Shown here piece after piece: positions 1,077 to 5,916 of a DNA stretch of 32,229 nucleotides. The DNA is taken from the NCBI GenBank assembly GCA_021777375.1, contig JAJYDV010000007.1, positions 1-32,229 on the forward strand. Reading direction: 5' to 3'. The notes below the pieces were generated by a model. The model made no database searches. It was not told where the DNA came from and was given only the letters and a program-made list of their open reading frames with translations. Within the stretch, counting starts at the first letter, position 1. Every line of letters begins with the position of its first letter. The translations under genes and the position numbers were made by a program. This stretch comes from a bacterium (GTDB taxonomy: Bacteria > Patescibacteriota > Saccharimonadia > Saccharimonadales > UBA4665).

Positions 1077-1556
1077 TTATCCTTGAGTAGTGTGGTCGCC
1101 GAGCTGAATCGTTCCTTCGTCTTCCTTAGTTTCAAGGAGTACGTCTTCTTTTTGGTCAGCCGGCTTTAATATGTTATCTACCAGCTGATCCAGCTGGTTA
1201 TTAGATAAGTTTGCCTTTACGGCGTACCCTTCAATCCCCATGTCACGCAGTCCAGCTGGTGCATCAGATTCATTAAGATTAGAGATAATAAATACTGGGA
1301 TTGTCCGGCCCCAGCTGCTTTTGCGCATGGTCTCAAGAATTTGGTCACCGGCAATCTTTGGCACCATTAAGTCAAGAAGGACTAAATTAGGGAGTTCTTT
1401 CTCGATGATGTTAAGCGCCGCTACCCCATCGTAGGCAGTAAAACAAATGTAACCGAGAAGTTCAAGCCGTGTTTTATAAATGTCCGCAAGGCTTACGTTA
1501 TCTTCAACAATAACTATTTTTTGTGATCGACCGAATTGAGTGGTGTTGTTGTCCAT
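1077..1556 (-). CDS. Stand-alone response regulator (CheY-like receiver)
   Basis: The 159-residue protein is one receiver domain (about 13-130) plus an acidic tail of about 28 residues, with no DNA-binding or enzymatic output domain. The phosphorylation site is complete: acidic pair E18/D19, acceptor D62 in LLDLMVPK, S92 and K114. It would be phosphorylated by a histidine kinase, which is not in the window. It lies upstream of WhiB on the same strand. A TATACT hexamer (1564-1569, minus) ends seven bases before the ATG, so the transcript may be leaderless. Output by protein-protein contact is an inference from the lack of an effector domain. Confidence 0.9.
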   Translation of the reverse strand: MDNNTTQFGRSQKIVIVEDNVSLADIYKTRLELLGYICFTAYDGVAALNIIEKELPNLVLLDLMVPKIAGDQILETMRKSSWGRTIPVFIISNLNESDAPAGLRDMGIEGYAVKANLSNNQLDQLVDNILKPADQKEDVLLETKEDEGTIQLGDHTTQG

Positions 1557-1563
1557 AACTAAC

Positions 1564-1569
1564 AGTATA
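1564..1569 (-). promoter_or_regulatory. -10 element of the response regulator
   Basis: Minus-strand TATACT followed by seven bases and the ATG at 1556. Transcription would begin at or next to the start codon, and no ribosome binding site is visible. Confidence 0.4.
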
Positions 1570-1615
1570 TTCTAAGCATTAGCATTAGTGAATGACTATA
1601 CTCATTTTTTAAATA

Positions 1616-2245
1616 TTAGACTTTTCTAATCCGCGCTTTGACTGCCCGGCGATAAATTATCCTCCCGGCAATTAGACAAATCGTAGCAATTGTCAGATAG
1701 AGTTCAACTTTCAGAAATATATTTATGTAGCTGCTGCCATAGTAGGCAATTAAAGCCCAGAAATTTACCCAAACTGCCGCTCCTAGGATGTTAAAAGAAA
1801 GAAATTTAACCCAGCGCATCTCACTAATACCAGCAATAATGCCGTTGAGTTGCCTAAGACCATCTATGAAACGCGCACCGGCAACTATTTTCCCGCCATG
1901 ATTATTAAAGTAAGTCTGAGCCTTATCTAAGCGCTCGTTAGTTAGAAGAATATATCTTCCCCACCGCTCAACAAGCGGTCGCCCGCCCAGCCTGCCTATC
2001 GAATAGCCGACATTATCGCCTAGTACGGCCGCCGCGAAACCAATTAAAATTACTAAAATAATATTCAGCTTGCCAAGACCGGCGTAAAAAGCAGCAGCTA
2101 CTAACACAGTCTCTCCAGGCACCGGCAAGCCGAAGTCTTCTAGAAACATTAAGCCGGCCAAAGCTAAGTATCCGTATTGACTGATCACTGGGGCCAAGGC
2201 CTGGATATAGCTTGGAATGTTTTGCGCAGACTGAATATTATGCAT
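1616..2245 (-). CDS. DedA-family membrane protein
   Basis: The 209-residue protein has the DedA/SNARE-associated (VTT) features: EDFGLPVPGE near residues 37-46, a GDNVGYSIGRLGG block near 75-87, the FxxHGGKIVxGARFxxGLRxL segment near 114-130, and hydrophobic helices to the C-terminus. DedA proteins are inner-membrane proteins linked to lipid-carrier recycling and membrane homeostasis; some members flip undecaprenyl phosphate or phosphatidylethanolamine. Both the conserved acidic and Arg residues are present. It is 97 bases after the methyltransferase on the same strand. A TAGAAT preceded by TGT on the minus strand is a plausible promoter. Substrate is unknown. Confidence 0.9.
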   Translation of the reverse strand: MHNIQSAQNIPSYIQALAPVISQYGYLALAGLMFLEDFGLPVPGETVLVAAAFYAGLGKLNIILVILIGFAAAVLGDNVGYSIGRLGGRPLVERWGRYILLTNERLDKAQTYFNNHGGKIVAGARFIDGLRQLNGIIAGISEMRWVKFLSFNILGAAVWVNFWALIAYYGSSYINIFLKVELYLTIATICLIAGRIIYRRAVKARIRKV

Positions 2246-2342
2246 TGACTACTTCTAAATAACTAACCCTATTCTAACAGCGTCTAGATTAATTAGCGCC
2301 GCCGGTTTTTGGTAATTTAAGTATCAGAGGTACTGGTAAAAT

Positions 2343-3104
2343 CTATCCCTTCTTAACTAGGAAGAAAATGCTTGGTCCAAAATTTGCATAAGCCAGCGGA
2401 CGCTGCGCAACCTTCTCAACACCCAAAAGTGCCGACATCGGTAAATTCTCCTTAAATACTCGGTGGCGCAAATTAGAAACCGATAGCTTTTCTAAAACCC
2501 TAAGGCCCTGCTCCTCTAACTGATGCTCAATGGTCTTTGGGTTGTGGTTCACAAAAGGAGTGTCGTCTTCCGCTCCGTTAGCGTGTACGCCAACAGCAAC
2601 CGGCTCACTTGGCACGGCTTTAAGTTGTTTTAAGTAGCGCATTCGGTTAACGAAGTGCGCCTCACTGGCAATCTCAATTACCGACTCCGCTCCGGGCTTT
2701 AGGGCGCGGGCAATTTCGCTAAACACTGGATTGGGGTTCGGAAGGTGATGGGAAACCCTTATCATGGCTAAAAAATCTAGCGAGGCGTCTTCAGCAGGTA
2801 CATTATCTTTCTCTTGTTGCTGAACAAACTTAACATTTAGTCCAGCTAACTTCTCTTTTGCAATAGCCAGCTGCTTCTTAGAAGGATCTACTAAGATTAC
2901 CTGGTCTGAATATTCAAGTAGTGTCGGGGTTAGCCGGCCATAGCCGCCCCCGTAATCCATGGCCAACTTATAATGCCTTCCCTCAAGCAGCTTTTTAAAG
3001 GCAATTAACTCGGCTTCATGTTCATAGTCACGACCAACCCAAAAGTCCCGGTAATCGTGGTTATTATCATCGTAGAAATCAATCTTATTGTCGTCTTTAA
3101 CCAT
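2343..3104 (-). CDS. SAM-dependent class I methyltransferase
   Basis: The 253-residue protein has a Rossmann methyltransferase core: motif I DYGGGYGRL, then an acidic VDPSKKQL end of strand 2, and a MIRVSHHLPNP block typical of the Methyltransf_11/25 group. The start is set at the ATG at 3104, with AGGA nine bases upstream; a TTG at 3122 gives six more residues but lacks spacing. It lies 45 bases after the RnfD-FNR gene and may share that transcript. The substrate is not evident; quinone, lipid or tRNA modification are all possible, and nothing here decides between them. Confidence 0.8.
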   Translation of the reverse strand: MVKDDNKIDFYDDNNHDYRDFWVGRDYEHEAELIAFKKLLEGRHYKLAMDYGGGYGRLTPTLLEYSDQVILVDPSKKQLAIAKEKLAGLNVKFVQQQEKDNVPAEDASLDFLAMIRVSHHLPNPNPVFSEIARALKPGAESVIEIASEAHFVNRMRYLKQLKAVPSEPVAVGVHANGAEDDTPFVNHNPKTIEHQLEEQGLRVLEKLSVSNLRHRVFKENLPMSALLGVEKVAQRPLAYANFGPSIFFLVKKG

Positions 3105-3149
3105 ATTAATTAGTCCTAACAAAGTTATTTAGCTGACGACTTCACTTTT

Positions 3150-4673
3150 CTATGAGTATCCAGAGAAGAAGTCAACCTTTATGTTAGCACGACTTACACC
3201 ATTATCGATTAGTGATCGTTCTAAGTCCCTAATTAGATTTGGCGGACCGGAAATATATATCTTGCGCGAGTCAATGTCTGAGACTAGATGCTGCAACATT
3301 CTGCTGTTAAGTCTTCCCTTAACTGCCCCCTTAAGACCTTCTTTGGCTGTTCCGTTGGATAAAACATAGTGGATGCGCAGTTTAAAATCTGCTTCAGCTT
3401 GCGCAAATACTTCTTTGTAGGCAATCTGTTCAGCCGATCGTGCCGCATAAACCAAGACTATGTCGCGCCGCTCTTTAGTATCGATTAGGTACTTGATCAT
3501 GCTACGAAATGGAGTAATACCGATACCGCCGGCAATAAATAGCAGCTTCCTTGATGTGTCGTTAGGCAGTACAAAATCACCTTCAAGTCGAGAGGCGACA
3601 ATCATATCTCCTCTTTCAATGTCAGCTAGTGCTATCTTATAGCTACTGCTTTGATCATAGAAACGTACTCCAATGCTCAGGTTGGATTCAGTGGGTGAAG
3701 ACGACAAGGTGAAATAGCGTCGTGCACCGCGGCTGTCCATCTTAGTATGTGGCAATGTAAACTCCATATACTGACCCGGTAAATAACTTAGCGACCTTTC
3801 TGGAGCGAAAACAAACTCAGCTGAGTCCTTAGTAATCCGGTACTTTTGTCTTAAAGTCGGCATTATTGAACCCTTGCTGCTAACTAAAAAGGCATACAAG
3901 TTGCCAATTAACAACGCAGCCTCTGGAGTTGAGTAGTAATGTCCGATATGGAACTTCGGTGCCATGACGGCGCCAACTAAAATGCCATAGAATATCCTTT
4001 TAAGCTTAGTGTCCGGTGAGCTATATGGCTCGGTAAGCATTACAAAACCTAGGAACAACAAACCTGAGCTAAGTAACATATTTTTTAGATCTATACCGAC
4101 GTTAGAACCAGTTTGGAGCGAGAAGAAAGCAGTAGTAAAGGTGCTCGCAAGCAAAAAGCTGACTAGCATCGATTCACGTCGTACTTTACGGATAATCAGC
4201 AGGCCTCCAATCAGCACGAATGGGAACATTGAGGTGGTCGCTACCCACCAGTCCGCGGATTGGTGCGGTCCGATAGCCGTTAAGAACACGGCGACTGCTG
4301 CCGGGTTAAAAATATGCTTCTTATGGTAAGTGATTAAATACTTTGAAGCCATCGCTAGACCGGCGGCAGCAAGGACAAACAATAAGCCATAGCCATTTAG
4401 GCTAGGCGGCATTATTAAAGCTAAAATTAGTCCGGTAATAATTGACGATTCGGGGTTAACCGACGTCTTAAAAAAGTAGGCCAGGATCTTATTGATGACA
4501 TAGCTTGCGCTAACTAGTAAAACGCTGGAGATAACAATGTCAATTGCCGATAGGTGAAGGATTCCGACAGAGCTGAAGCCAGCAGCAACTAATAGCAGGC
4601 CGATCAGGTAATAGATCAGTAGCCGGTACATCGTTACTTTGTTAATTAATGGATCAATCCACTTAAACCACAT
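3150..4673 (-). CDS. RnfD-like membrane domain fused to a ferredoxin-NAD(P)H reductase domain
   Basis: The 507-residue protein has two parts. Residues about 10-265 are eight to ten membrane helices like RnfD/NqrB, with the FNPAAV (122-127) and TEPYSSP (214-220) segments. Residues about 275-507 form a complete FNR module: FAD motif RRYFTLSSSP (318-327), NAD(P) motif GGIGITPF (382-389), SGPPNLI (475-481) and an aromatic C-terminus. I see no SGAT flavinylation motif in the membrane part. The ATG at 4673 overlaps apbE by 11 bases; the frame is open to 4826, but those residues only shadow apbE. With the adjacent FMN-binding protein it would carry electrons from NAD(P)H across the membrane. This is inferred from domains and neighbours; the final acceptor is unknown. 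Confidence 0.85.
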   Translation of the reverse strand: MWFKWIDPLINKVTMYRLLIYYLIGLLLVAAGFSSVGILHLSAIDIVISSVLLVSASYVINKILAYFFKTSVNPESSIITGLILALIMPPSLNGYGLLFVLAAAGLAMASKYLITYHKKHIFNPAAVAVFLTAIGPHQSADWWVATTSMFPFVLIGGLLIIRKVRRESMLVSFLLASTFTTAFFSLQTGSNVGIDLKNMLLSSGLLFLGFVMLTEPYSSPDTKLKRIFYGILVGAVMAPKFHIGHYYSTPEAALLIGNLYAFLVSSKGSIMPTLRQKYRITKDSAEFVFAPERSLSYLPGQYMEFTLPHTKMDSRGARRYFTLSSSPTESNLSIGVRFYDQSSSYKIALADIERGDMIVASRLEGDFVLPNDTSRKLLFIAGGIGITPFRSMIKYLIDTKERRDIVLVYAARSAEQIAYKEVFAQAEADFKLRIHYVLSNGTAKEGLKGAVKGRLNSRMLQHLVSDIDSRKIYISGPPNLIRDLERSLIDNGVSRANIKVDFFSGYS

Positions 4674-5400
4674 AAGCCTTAAATCCTTGGGTAAATGTTG
4701 CGTGACCAATATTATCAATCTGGTATCCTTCAAACCCGGGCAAACTGGCAATAAAACTAATTCCTTTTTTGCCCATTGCAAAGGCCGCAGTCGCAAACCG
4801 GTCGGCTTCAAAAATATTCGGGCCAATGACGGTTAGACTAGAAACGCCGCTAGGACTCCGGTGATCATTAAGCGGATTATAGATATGTTCGCCACGGATA
4901 TATGTACCACTGGTTGCAACACCCTGGCCACTTAACTTGATTACCTTTACTACCTCCTGCAGATTAAAGGGGTTGCGAATACCGATTATCCATGGTTCAT
5001 ATTGATCATTTAACCCCTCCGTTTGGATGTCACCTCCGGCTTCAACATAAAAATTACTCAAGCCTTCACTTTTAAGGATTTTAGCGGCATTATCTATCGC
5101 CCAACCTTTAACTAGTCCTGACGGGTCAAGCGTTCCGTCGCTCCGGGAAATGTCAAAATAGCCGCCGCTGATTTCTTTAGTTTGCTTGCACAAAGCGAGT
5201 ACTTCTTCCATCTCGGAGGACAGTTTTGCTGTTCCTTCCGATCGGTTATATTTCATGAGCTCGCTTTGCTCTTTATATGGGCTAAAGCGTCGATCTACCT
5301 GTCTAAAGTAGCCAAATAGTTTATCAAATGGAGCTTGATCTTTAGTCCCAACTATTTCAACCGTAATCGGCATCCCCATGATAATTTTAGTTTGCTTCAC
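4663..5400 (-). CDS. apbE: FAD:protein FMN transferase
   Basis: ApbE cleaves FAD and attaches the FMN part through a phosphoester bond to Ser or Thr of target proteins. The 245-residue protein keeps the family motifs: DPSGLVKGWAID (92-103), EAGGDI (120-125), ATSGTY (162-167), H172 followed by NP, and the D200/T204 pair that helps hold magnesium. It has no signal peptide or lipobox and is about 80-100 residues shorter than secreted enterobacterial ApbE, so it may work in the cytoplasm, although its likely target domain faces outward. It lies 24 bases after the FMN-binding protein gene and overlaps the RnfD-FNR gene. The family call is secure. Confidence 0.93.
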   Translation of the reverse strand: MKQTKIIMGMPITVEIVGTKDQAPFDKLFGYFRQVDRRFSPYKEQSELMKYNRSEGTAKLSSEMEEVLALCKQTKEISGGYFDISRSDGTLDPSGLVKGWAIDNAAKILKSEGLSNFYVEAGGDIQTEGLNDQYEPWIIGIRNPFNLQEVVKVIKLSGQGVATSGTYIRGEHIYNPLNDHRSPSGVSSLTVIGPNIFEADRFATAAFAMGKKGISFIASLPGFEGYQIDNIGHATFTQGFKAYVV

Positions 5401-5424
5401 GTTTTTAAAAATTTAGGGGGTCTT

Positions 5425-5916
5425 TTAGGCTTTATTTAATGCTGCTTGAAGAGACTGGACGAAGGCCTGCGATGTGAAAGTAGCGCCGGTAATCAGCTGA
5501 ACGTTGGCGTTTTGGGTTTGAATGGTTTCTTGTTGCAGATAAGGCATAACCTGCTGATTAATGTAAACCGAAGTGGAATGCGTGTTCGGGTACTGCAAAA
5601 ACTTAACATTCGTAATCCGGCCGTTACTAATGGATACTGAGACCTGAACGTTGCCGTAATAAGCATCCGCCACGCTACCAATATAAGTCCCATCTTTGTA
5701 TTTAGAGCTGTTTGCCGGGGGTGAAGAAGGTGGTGCGGCAGTTGCAGCCGTAGTATTTGAAGTTGCCGCGGAAGTGGATGTTGATCCACCACTTTTAGTA
5801 TTACTACTGCTGAGCAAATCGGCCGGTTTTGGAATAACCGGCTGCTGGTGCCTGATGCCTAATGAGTAAATAAGGTAGACTCCGAAAATGCCAAAACCAA
5901 TTACTGCTTTCTTCAT
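5425..5916 (-). CDS. Membrane-anchored FMN-binding protein (likely ApbE substrate)
   Basis: The 163-residue protein has an N-terminal membrane anchor (4-21), a Ser/Thr/Ala/Pro-rich linker (33-70) and an FMN_bind domain (72-163) like the NqrC/RnfG and PplA modules. The flavinylation motif is TGAT at 143-146, in LITGATFTSQAF, with T146 the expected FMN acceptor. The linker would let the flavin domain reach away from the membrane or through the wall. AGGG lies upstream of the ATG with good spacing. It is the first gene of a likely operon with apbE and the RnfD-FNR fusion, which supply the modifying enzyme and the electron donor. The first residue of the motif is Thr instead of Ser, a common variant. 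Confidence 0.9.
   Translation of the reverse strand: MKKAVIGFGIFGVYLIYSLGIRHQQPVIPKPADLLSSSNTKSGGSTSTSAATSNTTAATAAPPSSPPANSSKYKDGTYIGSVADAYYGNVQVSVSISNGRITNVKFLQYPNTHSTSVYINQQVMPYLQQETIQTQNANVQLITGATFTSQAFVQSLQAALNKA

Follow-up and report, generated by a model that had tools for sequence, protein, structure and literature searches.

Gene content of the locus

The window analysed here, a 32,229-nt stretch of DNA, is one contig (C3) of a Saccharibacterial genome (G000) of 724 kb with 97.9% completeness. Three genes on its minus strand, transcribed in the order of FMN_bind, ApbE and membrane-FNR fusion, encode a membrane-anchored, NqrC/RnfG-like FMN_bind protein of 163 aa (5425..5916), a short-form ApbE FAD:protein FMN transferase of 245 aa with a GTG start (4663..5400), and an NqrB/RnfD-like membrane domain fused to an FNR-type reductase, of 507 aa (3150..4673). 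The first-pass annotation had named an anchored FMN-binding protein with a TGAT site, an ApbE and an RnfD-like/FNR fusion, and the Pfam search bore out these identities: PF04205 FMN_bind for the first protein (E 4e-11), PF02424 for the second (E 2e-42) and, within the one ORF of the third, PF03116 NQR2_RnfD_RnfE in the N-terminal part (E 2e-13) and PF00175 NAD_binding_1 in the C-terminal part (E 3e-16), both passing the curated cut-off. A further match of the fusion to PF00970 FAD_binding_6 was weak.

The same annotation described the genes as adjacent and overlapping. The adjacency was confirmed and the ApbE and fusion genes do overlap by 11 nt, but FMN_bind and ApbE are separated by a gap of 24 nt. 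The ORF originally listed for the fusion has 558 aa and begins with a TTG inside ApbE, 51 of its residues being read, in a different frame, from the end of ApbE; the start conserved in relatives, as judged from the alignment, is the ATG at 4673, and this gives the 507 aa and the 11-nt overlap. The fusion directly adjoins ApbE, i.e., it lies within five genes of ApbE/FMN_bind, which is the distance used for recognizing the NQR/RNF-like class. Within the genus, the trio is followed on the same strand by genes for a SAM methyltransferase, a DedA/VTT membrane protein and a receiver-only regulator (1077-3122 in the window, where the methyltransferase is 27 nt downstream of the fusion), and in several relatives a phosphoesterase is placed between the trio and these genes. 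A nucleotidyltransferase is also among the trio's neighbours in the window. Scans for promoters and terminators gave matches no more numerous than those in shuffled sequences.

FMN-binding protein and its flavinylation motif

The FMN protein is composed of an N-terminal helix (residues 5-19) that is hydrophobic (mean KD 2.0 over 15 residues), a conserved YSxGIRHQxPVxxKP segment, a Ser/Thr/Pro linker, and the FMN_bind domain (residues 77-163), and it matches the FMN-binding domain of PDB 8p2a with an E of 1e-11. The TGAT site corresponds to residues 143-146, with Thr146 as the putative acceptor, and alignment places it in the flavinylation motif Q-L-I-T-G-A-T (residues 140-146; 5479..5499, minus strand). 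The canonical motif is D-x-x-[ST]-G-A-[ST], whose Asp is strictly conserved according to a 2025 review (PMC12052999). In the Saccharibacterial clade to which the window belongs, this Asp is replaced by Gln and rarely by Asn or Ser, whereas it is retained in Chloroflexota and in most of the other CPR members; TGAT or SGAT is kept throughout the clade. Covalent attachment of FMN to Thr146 remains likely, because a change of the Asp to Ala had only a minor effect in one Klebsiella target (PMC12052999). Actinobacterial FMN partners (L105, L107 and L108), among them those of Aeromicrobium and Nocardioides, carry a lipobox-like signal.

ApbE and the site of flavin attachment

The T-fold and the Ser/His/Asp triad of ApbE FAD:protein FMN transferases are present in the ApbE of the window. 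Its AlphaFold model has a pLDDT of 93, and Foldseek found FmnB (E 5e-22) and Treponema Ftp with a TM of 0.9 by query length. The residues of the putative triad, S164 (4909-4911), H172 (4885-4887) and D200 (4801-4803), which match Ser241, His257 and Asp285 of the Vibrio enzyme (PMC12052999), are invariant in 18 sequences including the second ApbE of the same genome. Its short length of 245 aa reflects the absence of profile positions ~76-124, some 50 residues of the helical insert; ApbE proteins of Ktedonobacteria and Mesorhizobium are shortened in the same way.

A secreted or lipoprotein form is typical of ApbE but not universal, and its absence is no bar to membership of the family. In the window and in more than 30 other loci there is no room for a signal peptide, since an in-frame stop lies no more than ~22 residues from the first beta-strand; the second and only other ApbE of the genome is also without one. 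This raises the question of how flavin is supplied outside without an exported transferase or exported FAD. TatC was not found in the 97.9% complete assembly (by loss or an assembly gap), and Tat export of a folded flavoprotein was rejected as a candidate route on this basis. Because ApbE has no signal peptide, TatC was not found and the FMN partner is predicted to be anchored outside, the attachment of FMN most likely takes place in the cytosol and precedes export of the protein by Sec. A signal-less cytosolic ApbE is known from Klebsiella, but with a cytosolic target. As a tentative extension, signal-less ApbE proteins of NQR/RNF-like systems in general may flavinylate their partners prior to export, so that a flavinylated chain crosses SecYEG, and the Saccharibacterial ApbE may have co-evolved with the Gln motif; if true, this would be a different route to extracytosolic flavoproteins, with no need for FAD export.

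Membrane-FNR fusion

The membrane part of the fusion (residues 1-265; 3879..4673, minus strand) was assigned as RnfD/NqrB-like by PF03116, by alignment, and by a match to RnfD (7zc6_D) that is weak but in register (E 5e-4), and it contains conserved KHxFNPAA, WW and MLTEP segments. In this alignment TTATP of RnfD corresponds to TSMFP of the window, so that the column of the flavinylated Thr is occupied by Phe; it varies among F, L, M, T and W, most relatives having one of Leu, Met and Trp. AlphaFold modelled the membrane half moderately (blocks of 60-93 pLDDT; pTM 0.69), and Foldseek with the whole chain returned reductase-type matches only and no RnfD; the membrane half was placed by sequence.

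The FNR part (residues 266-507; 3150..3878, minus strand), which is predicted to be cytosolic and to bind FAD and NAD(P), is most similar, in sequence or fold, to the solved structures of NqrF, flavohemoglobins and flavodoxin reductases. Its FAD-binding motif RRYFTLSSS (residues 318-326; 3696..3722, minus strand) and NAD(P)-binding motif GGIGITP (residues 382-388; 3510..3530, minus strand) were located by alignment, and R318, R319, F321 and S325 of the former, as well as G383, I384, G385, T387 and P388 of the latter, are invariant in 20 sequences. The C-terminal FxGY and the GGIGITP loop are likewise kept in the 20 sequences, apart from minor substitutions in some of them. The fusion of the window has no cysteine at all, and thus no Fe-S centre or Fe-S step.

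Conservation and distribution

We examined 93 genomes of the family. The fusion was found in 57 and FMN_bind in 50, both being present in 48, while the searches used gave the fusion alone in nine and FMN_bind alone in two; some of the nine fusion-only genomes have truncated contigs or a divergent FMN_bind detectable by alignment. As a conserved operon, the trio is thus found in roughly half the genomes of this Saccharibacteria family. Nineteen family loci were read together with their flanks, and the order and strand of the trio are kept in all of them, including three (L051-L053) in which the FMN gene belongs to a divergent cluster. In a sample of the whole phylum, PF03116 matched in 65 of 380 genomes, i.e., about a sixth. 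A search for the same trio in other CPR genomes, which the first-pass annotation had proposed, found it in Amesbacteria, Nomurabacteria, Uhrbacteria and Adlerbacteria; outside CPR it was found in Dictyobacter, Ktedonospora, an Anaerolineaceae MAG, Schumannella, Aeromicrobium and Mesorhizobium, also on a Mesorhizobium plasmid. The dN/dS values against a relative (G059) were 0.074, 0.065 and 0.044 for the three genes, and the trio is under strong purifying selection. The same order and strand at 19 of 19 loci, the occurrence in several phyla and the low dN/dS indicate that the arrangement is not due to chance, and the trio is real, well conserved and probably functional.

In a tree of 43 sequences, the Saccharibacterial clade of the window is recovered as monophyletic (100/98) and groups with sequences of Ktedonobacteria, Anaerolineae, Mesorhizobium and other CPR; because its deeper forks are not firm, the tree assigns neither a donor nor a direction of transfer. 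L051-L053, although belonging to the same family, fall outside this clade and near the actinobacterial type with weak support, which suggests that two types of the trio coexist in the family. Orphan versions of the NqrB/RnfD-FNR fusion were also observed in Daviesbacteria and two MAGs (L094, L096 and L098), where neither FMN_bind nor ApbE was detected in flanks of up to ~4 kb on each side.

Proposed electron path

We consider it very likely, judging from cofactor motifs and gene content, that the trio belongs to the NQR/RNF-like class and forms a minimal NAD(P)H dehydrogenase that spans the membrane and is directed outward, to an anchored covalent FMN. The cytosolic FNR part of the fusion would oxidise NAD(P)H via FAD and hand the electrons to a flavin bound non-covalently by the RnfD-like membrane domain, from which they would reach, outside the membrane, the FMN that ApbE has put on Thr146 of the anchored partner. 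The reduced outer flavin would then reduce an extracytosolic acceptor; our best guess is a diffusible compound or a metal, e.g., Fe(III), with NAD(P)+ regeneration or metal reduction as the outcome. No dedicated acceptor gene is fixed beside the trio.

The trio would correspond to the NAD-side half of RNF (the NAD site, RnfD and RnfG) without the electron-returning RnfA/E half, and because this half is missing, one-way outward flow with no ion pumping is expected. That the system could work without the other Rnf/Nqr subunits had been part of the first-pass annotation, and it agrees with our finding that PF02508 (RnfA/E, NqrD/E type) has no match in any of the 93 family genomes, although it was detected in the controls; such subunits, sought with the same profile elsewhere in the genome of the window, were not found. 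The annotated chain from NAD(P)H through FAD and the RnfD-like part to the anchored FMN is likewise favoured by the invariant cofactor residues and by a published proposal for the class. The idea is therefore not new: the NQR/RNF-like class was defined in 2021 from 127 clusters, most of them actinobacterial or CPR, and its members were proposed to carry electrons in one direction only, from NAD(P)H to an FMN domain outside the cytosol (Meheust; PMC8238504), and an AlphaFold model of the two-subunit complex of Ktedonobacter racemifer followed in 2024, together with a report that the covalent-FMN Thr of the membrane subunit is lost in the class (PMC10979944). In the papers searchable, we found no biochemical test of any class member, and a literature search on Saccharibacteria with flavin and ApbE gave no match. 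CPR bacteria have been described as strikingly poor in electron export based on flavinylation, and here a candidate system is conserved in Saccharibacteria. As it consists of only two redox proteins and one transferase, full reconstitution is feasible.

Comparison with known systems

With the NQR/RNF-like class the trio shares the three genes, the PF03116 + PF00175 fusion, the missing membrane Thr and the proposed one-way mechanism, and the clade of the window differs from it in having Gln for the motif Asp. The signal-less ApbE was seen in class members examined across phyla; both this and the Gln look unusual and, like the short form of ApbE, are undiscussed, as far as we searched, in the NQR/RNF-like literature, including PMC8238504 and PMC10979944. 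The RNF complex has RnfD-like and RnfG-like parts and ApbE dependence in common with the trio, which differs in having neither PF02508 (RnfA/E) nor the covalent-FMN Thr of RnfD, no Fe-S in the fusion, and an NAD site provided by the FNR domain fused to RnfD. NqrB-like, NqrC-like and NqrF-like FAD/NAD domains are shared with Na+-NQR, but NqrD/E and the [2Fe-2S] domain of NqrF are lacking, and electrons would cross the NqrB-like part in the opposite sense. Gram-positive extracellular electron transfer (FmnB/PplA of Listeria) resembles the trio in its ApbE-type transferase (FmnB being the best Foldseek match), its flavinylated anchored protein and its outward flow; FmnB, however, acts outside the membrane and needs exported FAD, and electrons enter through a type II NADH dehydrogenase and quinone. 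In the same phylum, an NqrB/NqrF-type fusion of T. rhizospherense was noted in 2018 with an Fe-S domain and suggested Na+ transport (PMC6031116); it is very probably the same protein as the fusion of the window, which in contrast to the reported Fe-S domain contains no cysteine.

Alternative explanations

As a special case of the path proposed above, the trio may be a reductase for iron or metal assimilation, in which the outer FMN would reduce Fe(III) for a VIT-type or other transporter. VIT-family genes occur near the trio on the Mesorhizobium plasmid (L164) and in one family genome (G010, L043), and ~2.4 kb away in another (G012), and the eLife survey lists six NQR/RNF-like clusters with VIT1 (PMC8238504). 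Such proximity is, however, weak, being seen in two of ~57 loci, and the neighbours in the window are the methyltransferase, DedA/VTT, receiver and nucleotidyltransferase genes described above, so that we regard this special case as somewhat unlikely. A VIT/iron link within the genome of the window was rejected, as its VIT1 sits on another contig (C6).

It is improbable that the fusion is instead an energy-conserving NADH dehydrogenase, whose NqrB-like part moves Na+ while electrons enter a respiratory chain. Such a role was put forward for the comparable T. rhizospherense fusion (PMC6031116) and would suit the NqrB/RnfD homology and the heme-copper oxidase of most family genomes, but NqrD/E and RnfA/E are absent from all 93 genomes, the fusion of the window has no Fe-S cysteine, its membrane domain has no covalent-FMN Thr, and COX1 is missing from the assembly.

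The replacement of the motif Asp by Gln and the short, signal-less ApbE might mean that the FMN protein binds flavin only loosely, or that ApbE acts as an FAD pyrophosphatase; given that TGAT or SGAT is kept across the clade, the triad is invariant, the genes are strictly linked and the Klebsiella Asp-to-Ala change had a minor effect (PMC12052999), we find this highly improbable. A cytosolic FMN domain, with no electron transfer across the membrane, would fit the cytosolic ApbE and the weakness of the charge bias flanking the anchor helix, but the lipobox-like signal of the actinobacterial partners, the long uncharged Ser/Thr/Pro linker and the known topology of NqrC and RnfG make it very unlikely.

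Genomic and metabolic setting

The electron chain of the first-pass annotation is thus favoured, whereas its description of the organism as fermentative is doubtful: COX1 (heme-copper oxidase) is carried by 83 of the 93 family genomes, among them those of 16 of the 18 further genus members, but was not found in the 97.9% complete assembly of the window, where it is lost or in an assembly gap. With the terminal oxidase reported before in soil Saccharibacteria (PMC6031116), it is unsafe to call the lineage purely fermentative. The possibility that the trio replaces a terminal oxidase was rejected, since COX1 is missing in five fusion-positive and five fusion-negative genomes, with no clear association.

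Genes for an OmpR-type response regulator and a histidine kinase are located directly upstream of the trio on the same strand at six related Saccharibacterial loci (L045, L046, L048, L049, L084 and L090), and a two-component pair also adjoins the trio on the Mesorhizobium plasmid (L164), which suggests that the trio is regulated by an envelope signal.

The second ApbE of the genome belongs to a separate cluster on the minus strand of contig C13 (L034:8059-11474), in which the ApbE is accompanied by an FAD/NAD reductase whose C-terminus carries a membrane helix and a Pro/Thr-rich tail, by a heme membrane protein resembling ferric reductases and by an Ig-like protein; the cluster has no FMN_bind and no evident ApbE target. 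Near it, L034:5649-7399 encodes a protein built of long Ser/Ala/Asn-rich repeats that are almost identical, with an N run in the assembly, possibly a variable surface protein. Copies of the reductase-ApbE-ferric-reductase-like cluster lie on either side of the trio at L046 (G038:C28:12001-32000), and three flavin systems are found there within ~13 kb.
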